A program made the translations under genes and the position numbers. The notes under the pieces are model-generated. The model saw nothing but the letters and a program-made list of their open reading frames with translations. It was not told where the DNA came from and searched no databases. Of a stretch of DNA of 45,219 nt, positions 34,611-44,955 are shown one piece after another. The stretch comes from Thermoplasmata archaeon (lineage in GTDB: Archaea; Thermoplasmatota; Thermoplasmata; Thermoplasmatales; Thermoplasmataceae). The stretch lies in NCBI GenBank assembly GCA_021797555.1, contig JAJZZM010000019.1:1-45219 (forward strand), given 5' to 3'. Each line of letters starts with the position of its first letter. The first letter of the stretch is position 1.

Positions 34611-35609
34611 TTATTTATTAACCATAACTGCTTTTATTGTATCCGGTATATCCCCTTTAAATGCATTTTCAACATCATTTATATTTATCTGCTTATTTAA
34701 TAATATATTTAAATTGATCGCCTTTGATGATATTAGGTTTAATGACCTTTCCATTGTGTATGGATTTGTAAATTCACCAGTTACCGTTATTTCCTTTCTA
34801 AAAATTAATGATGGCTTTATTTTAGCATATGCATCTGGATCATAAACGGCAAATGCAAGAATTCTTCCGGTATTTCCTATTATATCTAATGATTCCTCAA
34901 ATAATTTCATATTCCCTGTTGTTTCAACTATAAGGTCCACACCATTATTATTGGTTTTTTTCATAACATAATCATATAAATTCCCTGAAACTACGTCTGC
35001 ACCTAATTTTTTTGCCGTATTTAACCTATATTCATTTAATTCCGAGACCATTAATGGGCTATATCCCATATTTTTTAGTATCTGTAAAAATGTTAGTCCA
35101 ATAAATCCAGCACCAAGAATTAAAGCAGATTCACCTACTTTAGCATGTATAATATCCAATCCATGGATAATGCATGCTATAGGCTCTGTTACTGAAGCTT
35201 CTATAAATGATACATTGTCCGGTATTTTATATAATTGGGAATCAGGTACATTCACATATTCGGAAAAACCACCGTAAACATTGTTTCCTATACTGACAAA
35301 ATCCTTACAAAAATTCCTTTTTCCAGAGATACAGTATTTACATTTATTGCATGTTATATTTGGATCCACAACAACCCTGTCATTTCTTTTAAATGATTTG
35401 CTTTTTGATTCAACAATAATACCGCTGAATTCATGTCCGGGCACAACGGGATAGCTTATTAATGGATTTTTTCCATAGTATGAATGAATATCAGACCCAC
35501 AGACACCGCAGGCTTCAACCTTTATCTTTACTTCATCCGGTTTTAATTCTTCTAAACCAACATTTTCTATTGAAACATTTTTAATTCCATTTAAAAATAA
35601 TGCTTTCAT
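34611..35609 (-). CDS. Zinc-dependent MDR dehydrogenase (polyol/threonine type)
   Basis: A 332-aa medium-chain dehydrogenase. EACGVCGSDIHSYYG and PGHEFSGIIVE carry the catalytic zinc ligands (Cys, His, Glu); CNKCKYCISGKRNFC is the structural zinc lobe (four Cys); ALILGAGFIGLTFLQIL is the NAD(P)-binding motif. It resembles sorbitol, threonine or sugar dehydrogenases; the exact alcohol is unknown. The frame is open upstream to 35705, but ATG 35609 fits the family start (MKALFLNG) and has a TATA box 26 bp upstream (35631-35639), whereas the longer start would overlap the transaldolase gene. It follows the transaldolase on the same strand. Confidence 0.87.
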   Translation of the reverse strand: MKALFLNGIKNVSIENVGLEELKPDEVKIKVEACGVCGSDIHSYYGKNPLISYPVVPGHEFSGIIVESKSKSFKRNDRVVVDPNITCNKCKYCISGKRNFCKDFVSIGNNVYGGFSEYVNVPDSQLYKIPDNVSFIEASVTEPIACIIHGLDIIHAKVGESALILGAGFIGLTFLQILKNMGYSPLMVSELNEYRLNTAKKLGADVVSGNLYDYVMKKTNNNGVDLIVETTGNMKLFEESLDIIGNTGRILAFAVYDPDAYAKIKPSLIFRKEITVTGEFTNPYTMERSLNLISSKAINLNILLNKQININDVENAFKGDIPDTIKAVMVNK

Positions 35610-35649
35610 TAAATAAATAATGCAAATTATTTTATAAATGTTTTTAAAG

Positions 35650-36327
35650 TTACTTATTAAAAAACGTTCTACTACTTTCTGGAATTTCACTCCATTTATT
35701 TTCAAAGTTCTTAATATTTATACTGGTTTCAGGATAATCCGGCAATTTTTTAATGATGCTATATGGCATCGTAACGGCGTCTATGCCCATTAAACCGCAT
35801 CTAACGATCTGCACAGGATTATTAATTGCTGCCGCAAGTATTTTTGTTTTAATATCATAATTATTAAATATGGTCTTTATTGTGCTTACAGTTTTTACTC
35901 CATCTGATCCTATATTATCAATGCTGCTTATATATGGTGCAACATAATCTGCATTGTTTTTTGCAGCAATCAATGCCTGTAGTGAATTAAATACGACAGT
36001 TGCGGTAGTTTTTATATTTTTATCCTTTAATGCTTTTATCGCTTTTATACCATTGAATGTAACAGGTATTTTTACTATTACATTCATGCCCATTGAATGA
36101 ATTTTTACTGCCTGTTTAATTATATCATCATAATTATTTGATGTTACCTGTATATGAACTTCACCGTTAACTATTTTTGTTATATCTGTTATTATCTTCT
36201 CTGTGTCCGATCCTTTTAAAACCTCCCTTGCAAGGAGTTCTGGATTTGTAGTAACACCATCAATAAAACCATAATCAACAATTTCCTTTATTTCATCTAT
36301 GTTTGCACTATCAAGTAATAATTTCAT
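35650..36327 (-). CDS. Transaldolase / fructose-6-phosphate aldolase-type (TalC family)
   Basis: A 225-aa class I aldolase of the small transaldolase subfamily. LLLDSANIDEI opens the barrel, VTTNPELLA is the second strand motif, and NVIVKIPVT contains the Schiff-base lysine; TTATVVFNSLQALIAAKNNA and YVAPYISSID follow, all family signatures. It links pentose and hexose phosphates in the non-oxidative pentose phosphate pathway. I prefer ATG 36327 over 36336 because a TATATAAAA box lies about 27 bp upstream of it. The next gene on the strand is the MDR dehydrogenase. Confidence 0.9.
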   Translation of the reverse strand: MKLLLDSANIDEIKEIVDYGFIDGVTTNPELLAREVLKGSDTEKIITDITKIVNGEVHIQVTSNNYDDIIKQAVKIHSMGMNVIVKIPVTFNGIKAIKALKDKNIKTTATVVFNSLQALIAAKNNADYVAPYISSIDNIGSDGVKTVSTIKTIFNNYDIKTKILAAAINNPVQIVRCGLMGIDAVTMPYSIIKKLPDYPETSINIKNFENKWSEIPESSRTFFNK

Positions 36328-36464
36328 TATAATCATTATTATATAACATTTTTATATATAATTATATTGATATTTTATTTTAGCATGAAATGTTTTTTAA
36401 TACCATTGTATCTACTAAAAAAATTTAAGAAAAATTAATATATAGTTTATAATAACTATACTGT

Positions 36465-38341: not shown

Positions 38342-38845
38342 ATGCTTTATAACTTAGGATATATGGATATTATAGATAATGCATGGCTAGTACCGTTATC
38401 AAGGGGAGGAATTTATAAAATAGTGTTCTGCGATAATGAAATTAAAATTATAAGAATATTTTCGGGCGAATATGTACAGGAAAAAATAAAATTTAAAAAC
38501 GATTTAAAATATATAGATTCCATAAATGTACCAGGAGCAACAGACCCTATTGAACCTGAGGAATTATATAACAATATAAAAGATATGATTAATTATATTA
38601 CAGATGAATATTATAAAGAGGAAAAAATTAAATCTGAAAGTTCTAATGACATAAAAATAATAAAATATAATGATATAGATAATATAGAATTAAAAACTGG
38701 TAATTCCCGAGAATTGCCTGAATTGATCATAAACGACAATAAATTTATATTGCCACATAAAAATTTTGACATAAAACATGAAATGGATAAAGATTTGTAC
38801 AGTAAATATAATAAAATGATTGAGAAATATATTAATAAAAAATAG
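38342..38845 (+). CDS. Hypothetical protein (167 aa)
   Basis: Not recognised. A mixed alpha/beta N-terminal half (WLVPLSRGGIYKIVFCDNEI, then IKIIRIFSGEYVQEKI), a helical middle (EELYNNIKDMINYITDEYY) and a Lys/Glu-rich C-terminal half. 'PLSRGGIYKIVFCDNEIKIIRI' suggests a PH-like or beta-barrel membrane-surface domain, uncertain. The start may be ATG 38342 or the eighth codon (38363). It is convergent with the repeat protein gene, whose end is one base away. Confidence 0.6.
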   Translation: MLYNLGYMDIIDNAWLVPLSRGGIYKIVFCDNEIKIIRIFSGEYVQEKIKFKNDLKYIDSINVPGATDPIEPEELYNNIKDMINYITDEYYKEEKIKSESSNDIKIIKYNDIDNIELKTGNSRELPELIINDNKFILPHKNFDIKHEMDKDLYSKYNKMIEKYINKK

Positions 38846-38846
38846 A

Positions 38847-39344
38847 TTATTTTTGTTCTAAACCTTCACTAAAATTTTTATTTGAAATGGAAAATTTTAA
38901 TAATAATTCTTTTTTATTGTTTTCAATGCTATTGATTGAATCAGATATTGCATTTCCCATCGTTCTTGAAAGACATTTATTATTATTGCCTATTTCAATG
39001 GCTTTTTTTATTAAATCATCTGATAAAAATGCGATTATTTTACCTAATGAATAACCAAGACCATGCGCAAATTCCTGATTTTTTTTGCTATATTTTATGA
39101 TATAATTATATAAATTATCATTCAATGAAAATAGTATTTTTGCAACTGATATCCCTAAACCGTATGAAAAATCCTTATTGTTCTCTGCAATGTTTATTAT
39201 TTTTTCATTAATTTTATTTCCTATAAATAGATTAATTGCAATAGCTTCCCCAAATCTTCTTGATGATTCCTTATTTTTTAATATTTCATCTATATTATTT
39301 GAATCATTATAATTAATTCCATAGTAATATTCATTGCTTTCCAT
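38847..39344 (-). CDS. Helical tandem-repeat protein (165 aa)
   Basis: Not a named family. About four units of 30-35 residues follow one pattern: 'NKDFSYGLGISVAKILFSLN', 'NQEFAHGLGYSLGKIIAFLS', 'NKCLSRTMGNAISDSINSIE', 'NKNFSEGLEQK', each a turn (N-K/Q-x-F-x-x-G-L-G) followed by two helices ending in I/L-rich segments. This makes a HEAT/TPR-like solenoid that would act as a protein-binding scaffold. There is no signal peptide or Cys. Found convergent with 38342-38845; upstream AT-rich promoter. Confidence 0.65.
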   Translation of the reverse strand: MESNEYYYGINYNDSNNIDEILKNKESSRRFGEAIAINLFIGNKINEKIINIAENNKDFSYGLGISVAKILFSLNDNLYNYIIKYSKKNQEFAHGLGYSLGKIIAFLSDDLIKKAIEIGNNNKCLSRTMGNAISDSINSIENNKKELLLKFSISNKNFSEGLEQK

Positions 39345-39498: not shown

Positions 39499-40926
39499 TT
39501 ATGCTGTTATAGGCTTGTACATACCTATCTCATAATCATGTGCTACTGTGTAATTATCATTGGATAGTAAATAGTTATACATGGCACTATTTTCTGCACC
39601 TAATGTATGTGCAATTGTTGTATAATTCTGTGAAGACCCACTTGTTATTAATGATGTCCATGCATTATCCATTAATATCTGCCATTCTGAAATCCATGGT
39701 ACTGGATCCCTTATAAAGACACCTTCACTTATAGCTTTTATTGATACATTAAGTACTGAATTAGTTCCTGATACCAGGGATGTATTCATTCCTATGGTTT
39801 TCAAATCTACTGAGCCTGGCCACTGATAATCCATCATTGAGTATTTATTAGCCGCTAAGCCTTTGTATGTTGCCCAGTATGATGTTTTGTATTCCGGTGT
39901 GAAGTATTTGCTTAGGTTATATATATAATACATGGCCTGTATATCGTGTGTGTCATTGAAGACAACTGGGTTACCACCAAATTGAACAAACCACTGATAT
40001 AATTCAGTAGGTGTGCTTGCTCCGCCATGTCCCTGGAAATTTATCATGCCCCTTCCATATTTTGTATACAGTGTTTTTGCATCATTATAAAGTGCGGTAT
40101 AGTTTTGTGGTTCGTGTGTTATTCCTATAGAGTTTAACGCAGTCATATCTATCCATACTAGTGGTGTATTTATTATCTGGGTTACAAATGGTATGGCGCC
40201 AAAGATAGAGAATTCAGTATTTGTTAAATTTGTAACCGATGGGATAACATATTTTGGCATGACCTGTTTATAATCAGACATATTTAAAAGATATGATGCA
40301 CCCTTGTAATGACCATAGGCTAATACGCCAACATCAAGATTGTCTATACTTACTACTATTGGTGTAGTTGAGCCGGCATGTATATCTGCTTCAACATCCG
40401 ATATTATATCTGTAGCAAGTTCATCAGTAGCACTGATTTTTATATGTGGGTATAATTTTTCAAAGTTTGAAATAAGTTTCTGTGTTGTTGTGTAATCCGA
40501 AGGTGATATGCTTGTGAAATATGTTATCGTAACCGTTGCAGTGCTTGAGTATATGGATGGTACATCGGAACCTGTTACATTATGCGTACTTATAGGTATA
40601 AAGCCCGTAGCCTGTTCACATGTAAACTGTACTTCCGGTGAAAGCATATATGCAGCAAATTGGTTCATTGCACTTATATCCGTTGAAGTTAAACCACTTG
40701 TATTGGCTTCAGCTATTACACAACCTCCCAGCAAATGTTCTGAATTAACAGGTCCTGCAGGTCCTGGATAAACTGCTAAAGTCTGTTGTTTTACAGGTTT
40801 CGGTGCTAGATAATGGTATCCTACAGCAATGGCGACCCCTATTACCACTACAGCAATAACTATGGCCAAAATTTTTTTTGTATTGCCTTTGCCCTTACTA
40901 TCTTCTTCTTCATTTGGATTCTTCAT
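39499..40926 (-). CDS. ABC sugar-binding protein, membrane-anchored, with rearranged domain order
   Basis: Residues are counted from an upstream ATG at 40932; the TATA box (forward 40948-40953) lies 25 bp before ATG 40926, which is preferred. Residues 20-42 form a membrane anchor with no lipobox. Block C (50-118), AVYPGPAGPVNSEHLLGG to ATGFIPIS, normally lies in the last third of MalE-type proteins. Block A begins at 132 (VTITYFTS, NFEKLYPHIKI), the usual mature start; block B ends in YSMMDYQWPG (365-373), after which C should follow; block D (403-458, FIRDPVPWISEWQ) is the usual C-terminal helix region. It should capture oligosaccharide for the importer encoded divergently. All blocks resemble family 1 extracellular solute-binding proteins. 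Confidence 0.85.
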   Translation of the reverse strand: MKNPNEEEDSKGKGNTKKILAIVIAVVVIGVAIAVGYHYLAPKPVKQQTLAVYPGPAGPVNSEHLLGGCVIAEANTSGLTSTDISAMNQFAAYMLSPEVQFTCEQATGFIPISTHNVTGSDVPSIYSSTATVTITYFTSISPSDYTTTQKLISNFEKLYPHIKISATDELATDIISDVEADIHAGSTTPIVVSIDNLDVGVLAYGHYKGASYLLNMSDYKQVMPKYVIPSVTNLTNTEFSIFGAIPFVTQIINTPLVWIDMTALNSIGITHEPQNYTALYNDAKTLYTKYGRGMINFQGHGGASTPTELYQWFVQFGGNPVVFNDTHDIQAMYYIYNLSKYFTPEYKTSYWATYKGLAANKYSMMDYQWPGSVDLKTIGMNTSLVSGTNSVLNVSIKAISEGVFIRDPVPWISEWQILMDNAWTSLITSGSSQNYTTIAHTLGAENSAMYNYLLSNDNYTVAHDYEIGMYKPITA

Positions 40927-41121: not shown

Positions 41122-41967
41122 ATGTTAAAAAGCTATCGTAACCGCAACTATAAATATATATTATTTGTTCTGCCTGCATTAGTCTACATTGCTATTTTAT
41201 CGTTTTTTCCTGCGGCTTCGGTAGTGTTCCTTAGCTTTAAGACATCAAAGGATGTATATTCCCTAAGTAATTATTATGCTATAAAAGGTAGCTTACTAAA
41301 GGCAACGTATGATACTGTTATTGTTAGCTTTGGTGCACTATTAATACAACTTTTTTTTGCCATTCTTATCGCAAATATACTGATAAAATCCCTTAAAGGC
41401 AATAAAATATTTTCAACTATATTTATAATACCCTATGGAATTTCAACTGTTGTATCTGCATTTATATTTTCGCTTATATTCGCGGCTGTTGGTGGTTTTG
41501 CTAATTCAACATTGCATTCACTTGGGTTGCCTGTTATAGATTGGTATAAAACACAATATTCTTCAATGGGCGTTGTAATGTTTGCCGATTTCTGGAAAAA
41601 TACACCGTTGGTTGCATTAATTTTATTGGGTGGGCTTTCAAGCATTGACCCGGCCATGATGGAAGCAGCAAGCGTTGATGGGGCTGGATCGTTCAGAAGA
41701 TTTATACATATAACATTGCCTAACCTTGCGCCCTTTATTGCAATAGCACTGTTAATAAGAGGTGTTAGTGAATTTAATATATTTGCACTGCCATTAGTAC
41801 TAATAGGTTATCACCCCTCATTAATAAATACACTGGTTTATGAATACTTTACTTCAATATCGTCTGTAGATTATTCATATGCCGCTGCAACTATACTTTT
41901 ATTAATAATTGCTGCTTTTGCTGTTCTGGTAATAAAATTAGGAGGTACATCAAACTATGAAAAATAA
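41122..41967 (+). CDS. ABC sugar transporter permease, MalF-like
   Basis: A 281-aa, six-helix permease. The cytoplasmic coupling loop MMEAASVDGAGSFRRFIHITLP is the EAA motif of binding-protein-dependent permeases (EAA...G.........I.LP). The first helix, YILFVLPALVYIAILSFFPA, and the YGISTVVSAFIFSLIF region match family 1 sugar permeases, without the extra periplasmic insert of E. coli MalF. It forms the heteromeric channel with the next gene's product. First gene of a three-gene operon transcribed away from the binding protein; the start is fixed by the TATA box 26 bp upstream. Confidence 0.92.
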   Translation: MLKSYRNRNYKYILFVLPALVYIAILSFFPAASVVFLSFKTSKDVYSLSNYYAIKGSLLKATYDTVIVSFGALLIQLFFAILIANILIKSLKGNKIFSTIFIIPYGISTVVSAFIFSLIFAAVGGFANSTLHSLGLPVIDWYKTQYSSMGVVMFADFWKNTPLVALILLGGLSSIDPAMMEAASVDGAGSFRRFIHITLPNLAPFIAIALLIRGVSEFNIFALPLVLIGYHPSLINTLVYEYFTSISSVDYSYAAATILLLIIAAFAVLVIKLGGTSNYEK

Positions 41968-42769
41968 TAATATACCATCATATATACTTGCGATTATTTT
42001 ATCGATAATATTTATATATCCATTGTATATTTTAATTTTAATAGCATTTGAACCTATAAGTCTAACATTTGATAGATTATACCCATATCAATTACCCTTT
42101 GATTTTACACTTGCAAATTTTGAATCTTCCATCAAAGACCTATCACTTATTACACCAGTATTAAGAAGCATTGTGGTAGCATTTATAGTTAGTATACTTG
42201 CAATAGTGCTTTCTACTTCAGCAGGATATGGACTAAATAAACTATCATCAAGATTTTCAAATAAAATTATTGTATTGATGTTTTTTGCAAATATGCTTCC
42301 AGCTATAGTTATTGCTATACCCATATCTGTCTATTTTATAAAATTAGGATTATACGATAATGTTCTGGGGATAGCACTGGCACAGGAACTTGTTGTATTG
42401 CCAATATCAGCATTTATCATGCTTGGTGGATTTAGATCATTGCCTAGAGATTTAGAAAATCAGGCTAACATAGATGGTGCCGGAATGATATCAACATTCA
42501 GATATGTTATAATGCCATTAATAAAAGTACCATTAACAATAACATTTTTGCTGGCATGGATGACATCGTGGGATGAATTTACATACGCTATAATAATTTC
42601 GCCACTTGCACCAACGTTTCCTGTAAGCCTTTATGATTATGTAAGTAGGGGGGAGCCATTTATCTCTGCAAGTTTTGCCTTAATAGTTACAATACCAGTA
42701 ATACTAATTGTAGTATTTTTGCAAAAATATCTTAAAGGAGAATATTTAACAGGGGGAATGAAAGCATGA
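41957..42769 (+). CDS. ABC sugar transporter permease, MalG-like
   Basis: A 270-aa, six-helix permease, partner of the MalF-like protein. Its EAA loop is LENQANIDGAGMISTFRYVIMPL. FGYGLNKL-type helix 2 residues (SAGYGLNKLSSRF) and MTSWDEFTYAIIIS before the last helix are typical of MalG. The start overlaps the previous gene by 11 bp and is preceded by a GGAGGT Shine-Dalgarno at 41940-41945, a clear internal ribosome site. It overlaps the ATPase gene by 4 bp (ATGA). Confidence 0.92.
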   Translation: MKNNNIPSYILAIILSIIFIYPLYILILIAFEPISLTFDRLYPYQLPFDFTLANFESSIKDLSLITPVLRSIVVAFIVSILAIVLSTSAGYGLNKLSSRFSNKIIVLMFFANMLPAIVIAIPISVYFIKLGLYDNVLGIALAQELVVLPISAFIMLGGFRSLPRDLENQANIDGAGMISTFRYVIMPLIKVPLTITFLLAWMTSWDEFTYAIIISPLAPTFPVSLYDYVSRGEPFISASFALIVTIPVILIVVFLQKYLKGEYLTGGMKA

Positions 42770-43776
42770 CATATAAAATGGAATTAATTAATTTGAAGAA
42801 ATCATACAACAATGTAAAAGTATTAAAAAATCTTAATTTGACAGTGAATGATGGGGAGTTTTTAGTAATATTAGGTCCGTCTGGTGAGGGTAAATCAACA
42901 CTTTTGCGTACAATTGTGGGCATAGAATCTTTAGATGGCGGAAAGGTTACAGTGGGCGGAAAGGATGTAACAAACAAACCACCCAACAAAAGGAATATAG
43001 CAATGGTATTTCAGAATTATGCATTATATCCAAACATGACTGTATATGAGAATATTGCGTTTCCATTAAAAATGGAAAGAATAGGTAAAGATAAAATAAA
43101 AGCTAAAGTTAATGAAGTTACAAAATTATTAAAAATTGAAGATATATTAAATAAAAATGTTACAAAATTAAGCGGTGGACAGAAGCAGAGAGTTGCAATA
43201 GCCCGGGCACTGGTAAGAGACCCTGCGTTATTTCTACTTGATGAACCATTAAGCAATTTAGATGCCAGGGTAAGGTATACTTCAAGGCAGGAGCTGAAAA
43301 GGCTGCAGAAAGAATTAAATTATACATTTATTTATGTAACACATGATCAACTTGAAGCATCGAATCTTGCGGATAGAGTTGCTGTGCTGCACAATGGTGT
43401 TATTGAACAGATAGGAAAGTACAATGAATTATATGAAAAACCTGCTACAAAATGGATTGGCGACTTTATTGGAACATATCCCATGAACTTTATCGATGGT
43501 GGCATTCTAGATTATGCAGGTAAAACAATAGGCTTCAGGCCACCATGGACAAAAAATGGTAATGACATAAAGGCTGAGGTAAATCTTATTGAGAATTCCG
43601 AGGGAAACTACTATGTTCACGGCAATGTTAATGGAAATAGTATCGTTATAAGAACAACAGAGAAATATTCAATTGGTGATGAGATATCATTTAATCTTAC
43701 AAAATTTAACATATATAATAATGGCATACTTGAGGATGTAAAATTAACGGAATATTATAAAAATGAAAATTTATAA
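42766..43776 (+). CDS. ABC sugar transporter ATPase, MalK/MsmX-like
   Basis: A 336-aa ATPase. Walker A is GPSGEGKST (residues 37-45; the usual Cys/Ser before GKS is Glu), the Q-loop lies in VFQNYALYP, the signature is LSGGQKQRVAIARAL, Walker B is LFLLDEPLSNLD, and the switch His is in YVTHDQ. The C-terminal TOBE/MOP domain (from about residue 240, IGFRPPW) is shorter than in E. coli MalK (371 aa). It powers import by the two permeases. The last gene of the operon, its stop overlaps the convergent glycosidase gene by 6 bp. GGGGG before ATGA coupling acts as the ribosome site. Confidence 0.93.
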   Translation: MTYKMELINLKKSYNNVKVLKNLNLTVNDGEFLVILGPSGEGKSTLLRTIVGIESLDGGKVTVGGKDVTNKPPNKRNIAMVFQNYALYPNMTVYENIAFPLKMERIGKDKIKAKVNEVTKLLKIEDILNKNVTKLSGGQKQRVAIARALVRDPALFLLDEPLSNLDARVRYTSRQELKRLQKELNYTFIYVTHDQLEASNLADRVAVLHNGVIEQIGKYNELYEKPATKWIGDFIGTYPMNFIDGGILDYAGKTIGFRPPWTKNGNDIKAEVNLIENSEGNYYVHGNVNGNSIVIRTTEKYSIGDEISFNLTKFNIYNNGILEDVKLTEYYKNENL

Positions 43777-44955
43777 AAAATGGTTGTCAATAATATTTAA
43801 AAATAGTCCTATTGTCCATGCTTGGAACTCACATGGTTTAATAACAAGGTACTTATTATTTATTATATTGTTATTATTATCAACAGAATAATATTCATAG
43901 GGCTCTTTCAAATATTTCACTGCTTTTAACAAGCTTAATATTAGTTTATTAGATTCTGCAATAAAACCTGATTTTTTTAATCCTTCCAGTATTATCCAGT
44001 TATCGTTTGGCCATATACTACCGGACTGGTATTTTAATATGTCACAAATAGTATCTTCTATAGAAACTGTTCTTATTCCATATGGGGTGAACATGTTTTT
44101 ACCAAATAATTTATCAACAATAGCCCTCTTTTTATTTATATCTATAATGTCGGTTATTAATAGATGCCCTGGTGAGGATGCTATGTTTTTTAATGCATTT
44201 ATCTTGCCATTGCATATGGAAATAGCAGGAGAGTAATATTTAATATCATCGATCCAGAAATATTTATTAATATTATTTTTTAGATAAATAATTTCGTCAT
44301 TTACCCTTTTATATAGGTTATTATCAGGGAATATTTCATTAAAAAGCCTTAAAGCTTCATATGCATATCCCTGAACTTCAATAAGTGCTATATCACCTGA
44401 TAGTTTATCGTACAAATCCCATGCACCATCCATCCATCCCATTGACGCCAATTTTCCATCTAATTCTATGGTATTATATGTAACAAATCCGGTATTTTCA
44501 GATTTTTTTAATAACCATATTATTGATTTTTCAACCGATTTTTGAATAGAATCTAAATTGATTTCGTAATTTTTCTTTATAAATGTTAATGCCGAGATAA
44601 TAAAAAGTGGAGTGCTATCAATAGATAAAAATATGGGTTTGTTTACTCCAACCCATGATTCTTTGTCCGGATTCTCAACATATGTCCTTGGATTTGAAAG
44701 TTCATGGAGAATTTTACCGGGTTCTTCCCCTGTTTCCACATCATATTTATTACCCTGGTATTTGCTTAGTACATTTAGGGAGTTCTTTAAGAAATCAGGG
44801 GACAAATATAATAATTGCAGCGATGATATTAATGAATCCCTGCCAAATAATTCCATAAATCTTGGATATCCGGCATAAAGGTAGCCACTATCTGATTTAA
44901 TTTTTTCTAATGCGTTTAATAATTTTATCCTTATATTTTCCAGTTCTTTTTCCAC
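43771..44955 (-). CDS. Amylo-alpha-1,6-glucosidase-like (glycogen debranching type) glycosidase
   Basis: A 394-aa (alpha/alpha)6-barrel glycosidase. YPRFMELFGRDSLISSLQLL is the family's most conserved block ('FGRDsl'), GWMDGAWD and VEVQGYAYEALRLF-like IEVQGYAYEALRLF follow, and SGSIWPNDNWIILEGLKK includes the Asp/Glu-rich active-site region. It fits the COG3408 glycogen-debranching C-terminal domain but lacks the N-terminal domain, about 300 residues shorter than full GDE. The start is GTG at 44953-44955, since the only nearby ATG (44957) is in another frame. It probably splits oligosaccharides brought in by the ABC importer. Cytoplasmic, no signal peptide. Confidence 0.8.
   Translation of the reverse strand: MEKELENIRIKLLNALEKIKSDSGYLYAGYPRFMELFGRDSLISSLQLLYLSPDFLKNSLNVLSKYQGNKYDVETGEEPGKILHELSNPRTYVENPDKESWVGVNKPIFLSIDSTPLFIISALTFIKKNYEINLDSIQKSVEKSIIWLLKKSENTGFVTYNTIELDGKLASMGWMDGAWDLYDKLSGDIALIEVQGYAYEALRLFNEIFPDNNLYKRVNDEIIYLKNNINKYFWIDDIKYYSPAISICNGKINALKNIASSPGHLLITDIIDINKKRAIVDKLFGKNMFTPYGIRTVSIEDTICDILKYQSGSIWPNDNWIILEGLKKSGFIAESNKLILSLLKAVKYLKEPYEYYSVDNNNNIINNKYLVIKPCEFQAWTIGLFLNIIDNHFL

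Follow-up and report, generated by a model that had tools for sequence, protein, structure and literature searches.

MalE is a standard folding model for discontinuous two-domain proteins, and the limits of its lobes are residues 1-109 and 264-309 for one lobe, and 114-258 and 316-370 for the other. In viral polymerases with a permuted palm, motif C lies ahead of motifs A and B. The N-lobe of MalE is discontinuous, with Y283 in its second segment; it forms late, depending on contacts between the sequence-distant residues V8 (strand 1) and Y283, both of which are tied to its nucleation core (PMC10805907). A natural change of chain order has been described for the Treponema pallidum protein TpMglB-2 (Tp0684), a circularly permuted substrate-binding protein (SBP) of the Type I / cluster B fold, for which the designation Type Ic / cluster Bc was proposed, and in which the N-lobe strands are circularly permuted and a fourth hinge crossing is added (PMC4990184). 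Fukami-Kobayashi et al. (1999, as cited in PMC9815098) inferred that type I and type II PBPs are related by a domain dislocation. Outside of binding proteins, an internally permuted palm is known from the RNA polymerases of permutotetraviruses and birnaviruses (PMC4666646, PMC8310298), and a natural non-cyclic permutation was proposed for the pair of AML1/CBF and riboflavin synthase (PMC2096629).

The window, i.e., the whole stretch of 45,219 nucleotides of contig JAJZZM010000019.1 (Thermoplasmata archaeon, GCA_021797555.1) that was analysed, contains on its minus strand a real open reading frame for an SBP with a changed order of blocks (Table 1); an alternative start two codons upstream would give a product of 477 aa. 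With a probability of roughly 0.86, this protein is a functional, membrane-anchored SBP of a carbohydrate ABC importer, in which block C was moved once, by duplication and loss, while the clamp was kept. The motifs quoted by the first-pass annotation were all confirmed at their positions: the chain runs from the membrane anchor through TLAVYPGPAGPVNSEHLLGG...MLSPEVQ...TGFIPIS to VTITYFTS...NFEKLYP and then to YSMMDYQWPG, from which ~32 residues lead to FIRDPVPWISEWQ. A similar anchor is also present in the relatives with the canonical block order. The linker between C and A is variable in the permuted proteins (roughly 10-25 residues).

Table 1. The permuted SBP gene, the parts of its product, and the neighbouring transporter genes (positions in the window)
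Feature	Position	Strand	Basis or remark
Permuted SBP, whole gene	39499..40926	-	475 aa + stop; partial Pfam SBP_bac_8 / PF01547 coverage
Membrane anchor at the N-terminus, with a short linker (residues 1-48)	40783..40926	-	Hydrophobic segment ~19-36 from sequence; model helix 15-40
Moved block C, residues 49-121 (TLAVYPGPAGPVNSEHLLGG...TGFIPIS...)	40564..40782	-	Canonical profile, C-block HMM, rearranged-alignment breakpoints
New linker C-to-A, residues 122-130	40537..40563	-	Fast-evolving or gapped across family
Block A, residues 131-253; first pass through the N-lobe	40168..40536	-	Canonical profile hit across A and B
Block B, residues 254-383, end ...DYQWPGSVDLKTIGMNTS; first pass through the C-lobe	39778..40167	-	Profile, block HMMs, rearranged alignment
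Old block C site, now short B-D junction, residues 384-389	39760..39777	-	~72 canonical residues missing
Block D, residues 390-475; last part of the C-lobe	39502..39759	-	Canonical profile match
ABC permease subunit 1	41122..41967	+	PF00528 4.5e-13; divergent from SBP gene
ABC permease subunit 2	41957..42769	+	PF00528 4.2e-14
ABC transporter ATPase	42766..43776	+	PF00005 1.6e-37
Glycoside hydrolase, amylo-alpha-1,6-glucosidase-like	43771..44955	-	PF06202 1.7e-10; often beside transporter

The relation of the protein to known SBP families is only partly visible to standard profiles. Pfam SBP_bac_8 matched it with an E-value of 2.6e-6 and 27.9 bits (cut-off 27), at profile positions 1-172 of 279 only, and SBP_bac_1 reached 25.3 bits (cut-off 26), or 27.1 in the genome search. 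In that search, the PF01547 match ended at 194 of 307 positions in the permuted gene, whereas it spanned positions 2-306 in the canonical relatives, and no NCBIfam model fitted the permuted SBP. Thus, the Pfam family profile is matched in order over only the first two thirds of its length, and block C is found at the N-terminus instead, so that profile searches that assume colinearity under-call proteins of this kind.

The change in block order became clear when a profile (A2) was built from ten relatives with the canonical order. It matched the gene in three pieces: profile positions 307-359 (C) at 40618-40788 (E 1.8e-6), 40-294 (A-B) at 39811-40557 (E 4.9e-65), and 381-461 (D) at 39520-39762 (E 1.8e-14). 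As three significant pieces occur in a shuffled order, the C-A-B-D arrangement is not due to chance. Together with the homology to relatives of canonical order, this bears out the proposal of the first-pass annotation that an internal block has been transposed. The annotation had also held that this is not a simple circular permutation, and rightly so, since block D remains C-terminal by profile and block HMMs, and no rotation of A-B-C-D yields C-A-B-D. No separate C region, which would have contradicted the annotation, is present between residues 373 and 403: only ~32 residues separate QWPG (371) from FIRDPVPWISEWQ (404).

In alignments with the canonical L118, restoring C to its canonical position increased the global score of the window protein from 568 to 788 and that of the permuted L009 from 668 to 944. 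When all of the 10,079 single-block moves were scored for L009 vs. L118, the return of this very block to its old site came out on top. Comparisons with L117, for which a wrong reading frame had been taken, are disregarded. The cut at the old site is clean in the rearranged alignment: permuted proteins have ...QWPGSVDLKTIGMNTS / ...SVLNVSIKAISEGVFIR, and the canonical counterpart is ...QWPYIYSDLLSLGMTNS-[EIGVYPGP...AAAYNGLNAST]-LKVYGPLEQAIQNPVFR, the bracketed segment of which the permuted proteins carry behind their anchor. The limits of the moved block, first read as residues 50-118, are shifted slightly by this alignment, to ~49-121. Additionally, the canonical profile is colinear with the solved structures 1eu8 (E 2.6e-18) and 9xf5, while the profile of the permuted family matches 9lff in swapped pieces.

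To place the change, we determined the block order of every homologous open reading frame with block HMMs. Among 62 distinct full-length homologues, 26 had the order C-A-B-D and 36 the order A-B-C-D (three further homologues were partial and are not counted here), and none of the 62 had two C blocks or the order C-A-B-C-D expected of an intermediate. Overlapping genome samples were surveyed at the level of the order (117), the class (400) and the phylum (390), and in these the permuted form was confined to one family (f1) of Thermoplasmatales, which fits the suggestion that the family is specific to acidophiles; its named carriers include Cuniculiplasma sp., Ferroplasmaceae UBA567, Thermoplasmatales UBA447 and Thermogymnomonas acidicola. 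Two genomes, G024 (L013 and L025) and G036 (L012 and L027), each have one permuted and one canonical-order relative. When a tree was computed from blocks A-B and D (341 columns, 62 rows), all permuted proteins fell into a single clade with a support of 100/100, nested within the canonical proteins, and the canonical outgroup clade of eight rows was supported equally (100/100). As the clade is nested, and as the solved MalE-type proteins have the order A-B-C-D, the permuted order is derived and of single origin: judged from this tree, C-A-B-D arose once, in the ancestor of one Thermoplasmatales clade.

The permuted gene adjoins its own two permease genes and an ATPase gene wherever the flanking DNA is long enough, and at such loci a GDE_C-type glycoside hydrolase gene is often found nearby. 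The order of genes was compared between loci L176-L185 on the one hand and L031-L055 and L186-L188 on the other. In canonical relatives, it is SBP-permease-permease-ATPase in one direction, except for L179, in which the ATPase gene is upstream. In contrast, every permuted locus with enough flank departs from this ancestral order, in one of three arrangements: with the SBP gene divergent from the permease genes, convergent with the ATPase gene, or downstream of it. This contrast places both the relocation of the gene and the block transposition on the stem of the clade; it is only inferred that a single event brought about both. In the Thermogymnomonas acidicola JCM 13583 record (L057, 5854-9924), the SBP gene and the two permease genes are all split into several frames. 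The window also contains a sugar-metabolism pair near the transporter (34611-36336; zinc alcohol/glucose dehydrogenase-like and transaldolase family), which is conserved in L031 and L032, and two small open reading frames without a Pfam match, at 38342-38845 (+) and 38847-39344 (-), the first of which has a relative beside the L031 SBP gene. Taken together, the block order, its derived state, its single origin, the purifying selection described below and the linkage to transporter genes are established as far as sequence alone can establish them.

A changed order could also have arisen without any movement within the gene, if the N-terminal C had been gained from another SBP paralogue and the gene's own C had been lost. 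The moved C ends in TGFIP, as in generic SBPs such as 9lff, and not in LSWPAVN, as in the nearest canonical proteins, and the stem branch in the C-block tree is long, as if the block came from elsewhere. However, the signature VYPGPxGpvNSxHlxGGdVlA is common to the moved C and the canonical relatives, with VFKGPNNTAQ in the outgroup, and the tail NAYGGMSAS / NAAAYNGLNAS is shared as well, in both cases with exactly the canonical group that is nearest in A-B-D. As the moved C bears the signatures of this same group, its import from a paralogue is rather unlikely. The C-block tree, with 73 columns, is too short to settle a paralogue origin or to prove that the block came from the same gene copy, and, given the TGFIP resemblance, an import is not fully excluded by these sequence comparisons.

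If block C was moved within the gene, as we prefer, the consequences for the chain can be inferred by homology. The alignment of the family profiles with a single MalE sequence (370 residues) by hhalign was weak, with a probability under 1 percent, and its path was colinear; it placed block C, with a weak score, at approximately MalE 243-305, against the region of 255-330 with which the first-pass annotation expected it to superpose. The mapping of lobes leans, therefore, mainly on 1eu8 and 9xf5. From this homology and the lobe limits of MalE, block C is inferred to be the second N-lobe pass. The identity of the moved block as C was thus read correctly at first, except that it also carries the short strand TLAVY, which belongs to the C-lobe edge in MalE. 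As both N-lobe segments are adjacent in C-A-B-D, the N-lobe would be continuous (at residues ~62-253), the C-to-D crossing would be gone, and two hinge crossings would be left instead of three, with the C-lobe consisting of B, D and the short N-terminal strand TLAVY. The earlier idea of a chain re-routed at the hinge is plausible, but it is better put, still as an inference from homology, as a continuous N-lobe with one of three crossings lost.

The AlphaFold2 model (residues 40-475, alignment of 62 rows) had a mean pLDDT of 86.5 and a pTM of 0.87, and block C was among its most confident parts (pLDDT 91-96 over model residues 31-60). In the model, this block has one strand of 8 residues and only one other, of 4 residues, so that the longer strand must pair outside of the block. 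An earlier model, from an alignment of 14 permuted rows, had its confident part mainly at residues 68-250 (C and A) and poor beyond 250, which fits a continuous N-lobe, as far as model confidence can indicate it. The best PDB matches by Foldseek were MalE-type SBPs (GacH, MalE3, TMBP; E 4e-6 to 1e-4), with TM values mostly of ~0.45-0.59 under sequential alignment. Such modest values of ~0.5 would be expected for an altered connectivity but do not prove it, and in a predicted structure lobe opening could also explain them. That the permuted protein still folds as the usual two-lobe clamp, with C docked in the N-lobe beside A, is therefore inferred, without an order-independent superposition or an experiment. 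It is also conceivable that C docks in a neighbouring molecule, so that the protein would form a domain-swapped dimer or a membrane chain and no monomer; the variable linker that joins C to A would permit this, and isolated PBP lobes are known for segment swapping (PMC9815098). We consider it improbable, given the confident monomer model and a linker that appears long enough for docking in cis.

Purifying selection acts on the gene throughout, and strongly on the moved block C. In the group to which the window protein belongs (L001-L002), dN/dS was ~0.09 in C, 0.15 in A and 0.02-0.03 in B, although these simple Nei-Gojobori estimates are approximate due to high dS. Such values in C and B, and the frames that are intact in all loci other than L057, make it hardly tenable to regard the gene as a degenerating remnant of the original SBP. 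The three frame-broken pieces in L057 might suggest decay; as the permease genes of that record are broken too, assembly errors are more likely, and we rejected the pseudogene reading. An artefact of assembly or reading, which might be suspected since metagenome bins supply many of the homologues, is refuted with near certainty by independent copies, i.e., 26 distinct full-length C-A-B-D proteins from independent assemblies, including the single-contig genomes G005 and G020.

Transposition within the gene could have proceeded by duplication and loss. A partial tandem duplication of A-B-C would make the new C-A junction in one step, and if the first A-B and the second C then disappeared, C-A-B-D would remain, with the block of ~72 residues shifted from the B/D junction to between the membrane anchor and A. 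In such a route, the full four-block set would be retained at each stage, and duplication and loss would fall in the same evolutionary stretch as the exit of the gene from its ancestral place in the operon. The protein should bind sugar and deliver it to the permeases as MalE-type proteins do, although this is inferred, in the absence of binding data.

Why the new order was kept is a matter of speculation. The N-lobe of the exported, anchored protein might fold on leaving the Sec channel, and the transposition might have been kept for that reason, as a now continuous N-lobe need not await a segment ~275 residues further on. We regard this as possible but doubtful. If true, the family would amount to a natural experiment that asks, for proteins folding outside of the cell in strong acid, whether folding is limited by the discontinuity of a domain. 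Independent of that, the equivalents of the V8 and Y283 segments are only ~40 residues apart in the permuted SBP, and so the family offers natural permuted and unpermuted pairs for testing the role of discontinuity in folding.

We found no earlier description of the permuted SBP family in the literature searched, nor, for binding proteins, a natural non-cyclic permutation with both orders recognisable. Natural non-cyclic permutations in which both orders can be recognised by sequence, on a known branch and in a working operon, appear to be rare. The closest described proteins are the MalE-type (type II, cluster D-I) SBPs, such as the trehalose/maltose-binding protein of Thermococcus litoralis (1eu8), GacH (3k01) and E. 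coli MalE, with which all four blocks are homologous and which have the same transporter gene set of two permeases and an ATPase. They differ from the permuted SBP in having the order A-B-C-D instead of C-A-B-D, in which the second N-lobe segment precedes the first and, by inference, one hinge crossing fewer is made. TpMglB-2 resembles the permuted SBP in being natural and membrane-tethered and in having an altered N-lobe chain order, but the permuted SBP is inferred, by homology to 1eu8 and 9xf5, to have a MalE-type fold, its permutation is non-cyclic, and one crossing is inferred to be lost. The domain dislocation of PBPs likewise changed connectivity via segment exchange; however, it is an inference on an ancient event at the level of folds, while here close homologues still show both the ancestral and the derived order. 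The permuted viral polymerases are an analogous case of non-cyclic internal transposition, in an unrelated protein and fold, so that the likeness is one of principle only. For AML1/CBF and riboflavin synthase, the proposal is based on 42 residues aligned by structure, with no homology in sequence (PMC2096629), whereas every block of the permuted SBP is strongly homologous to its canonical counterpart. The permuted SBP is, thus, a clear natural reordering of the parts of a protein whose close relatives keep the normal order.
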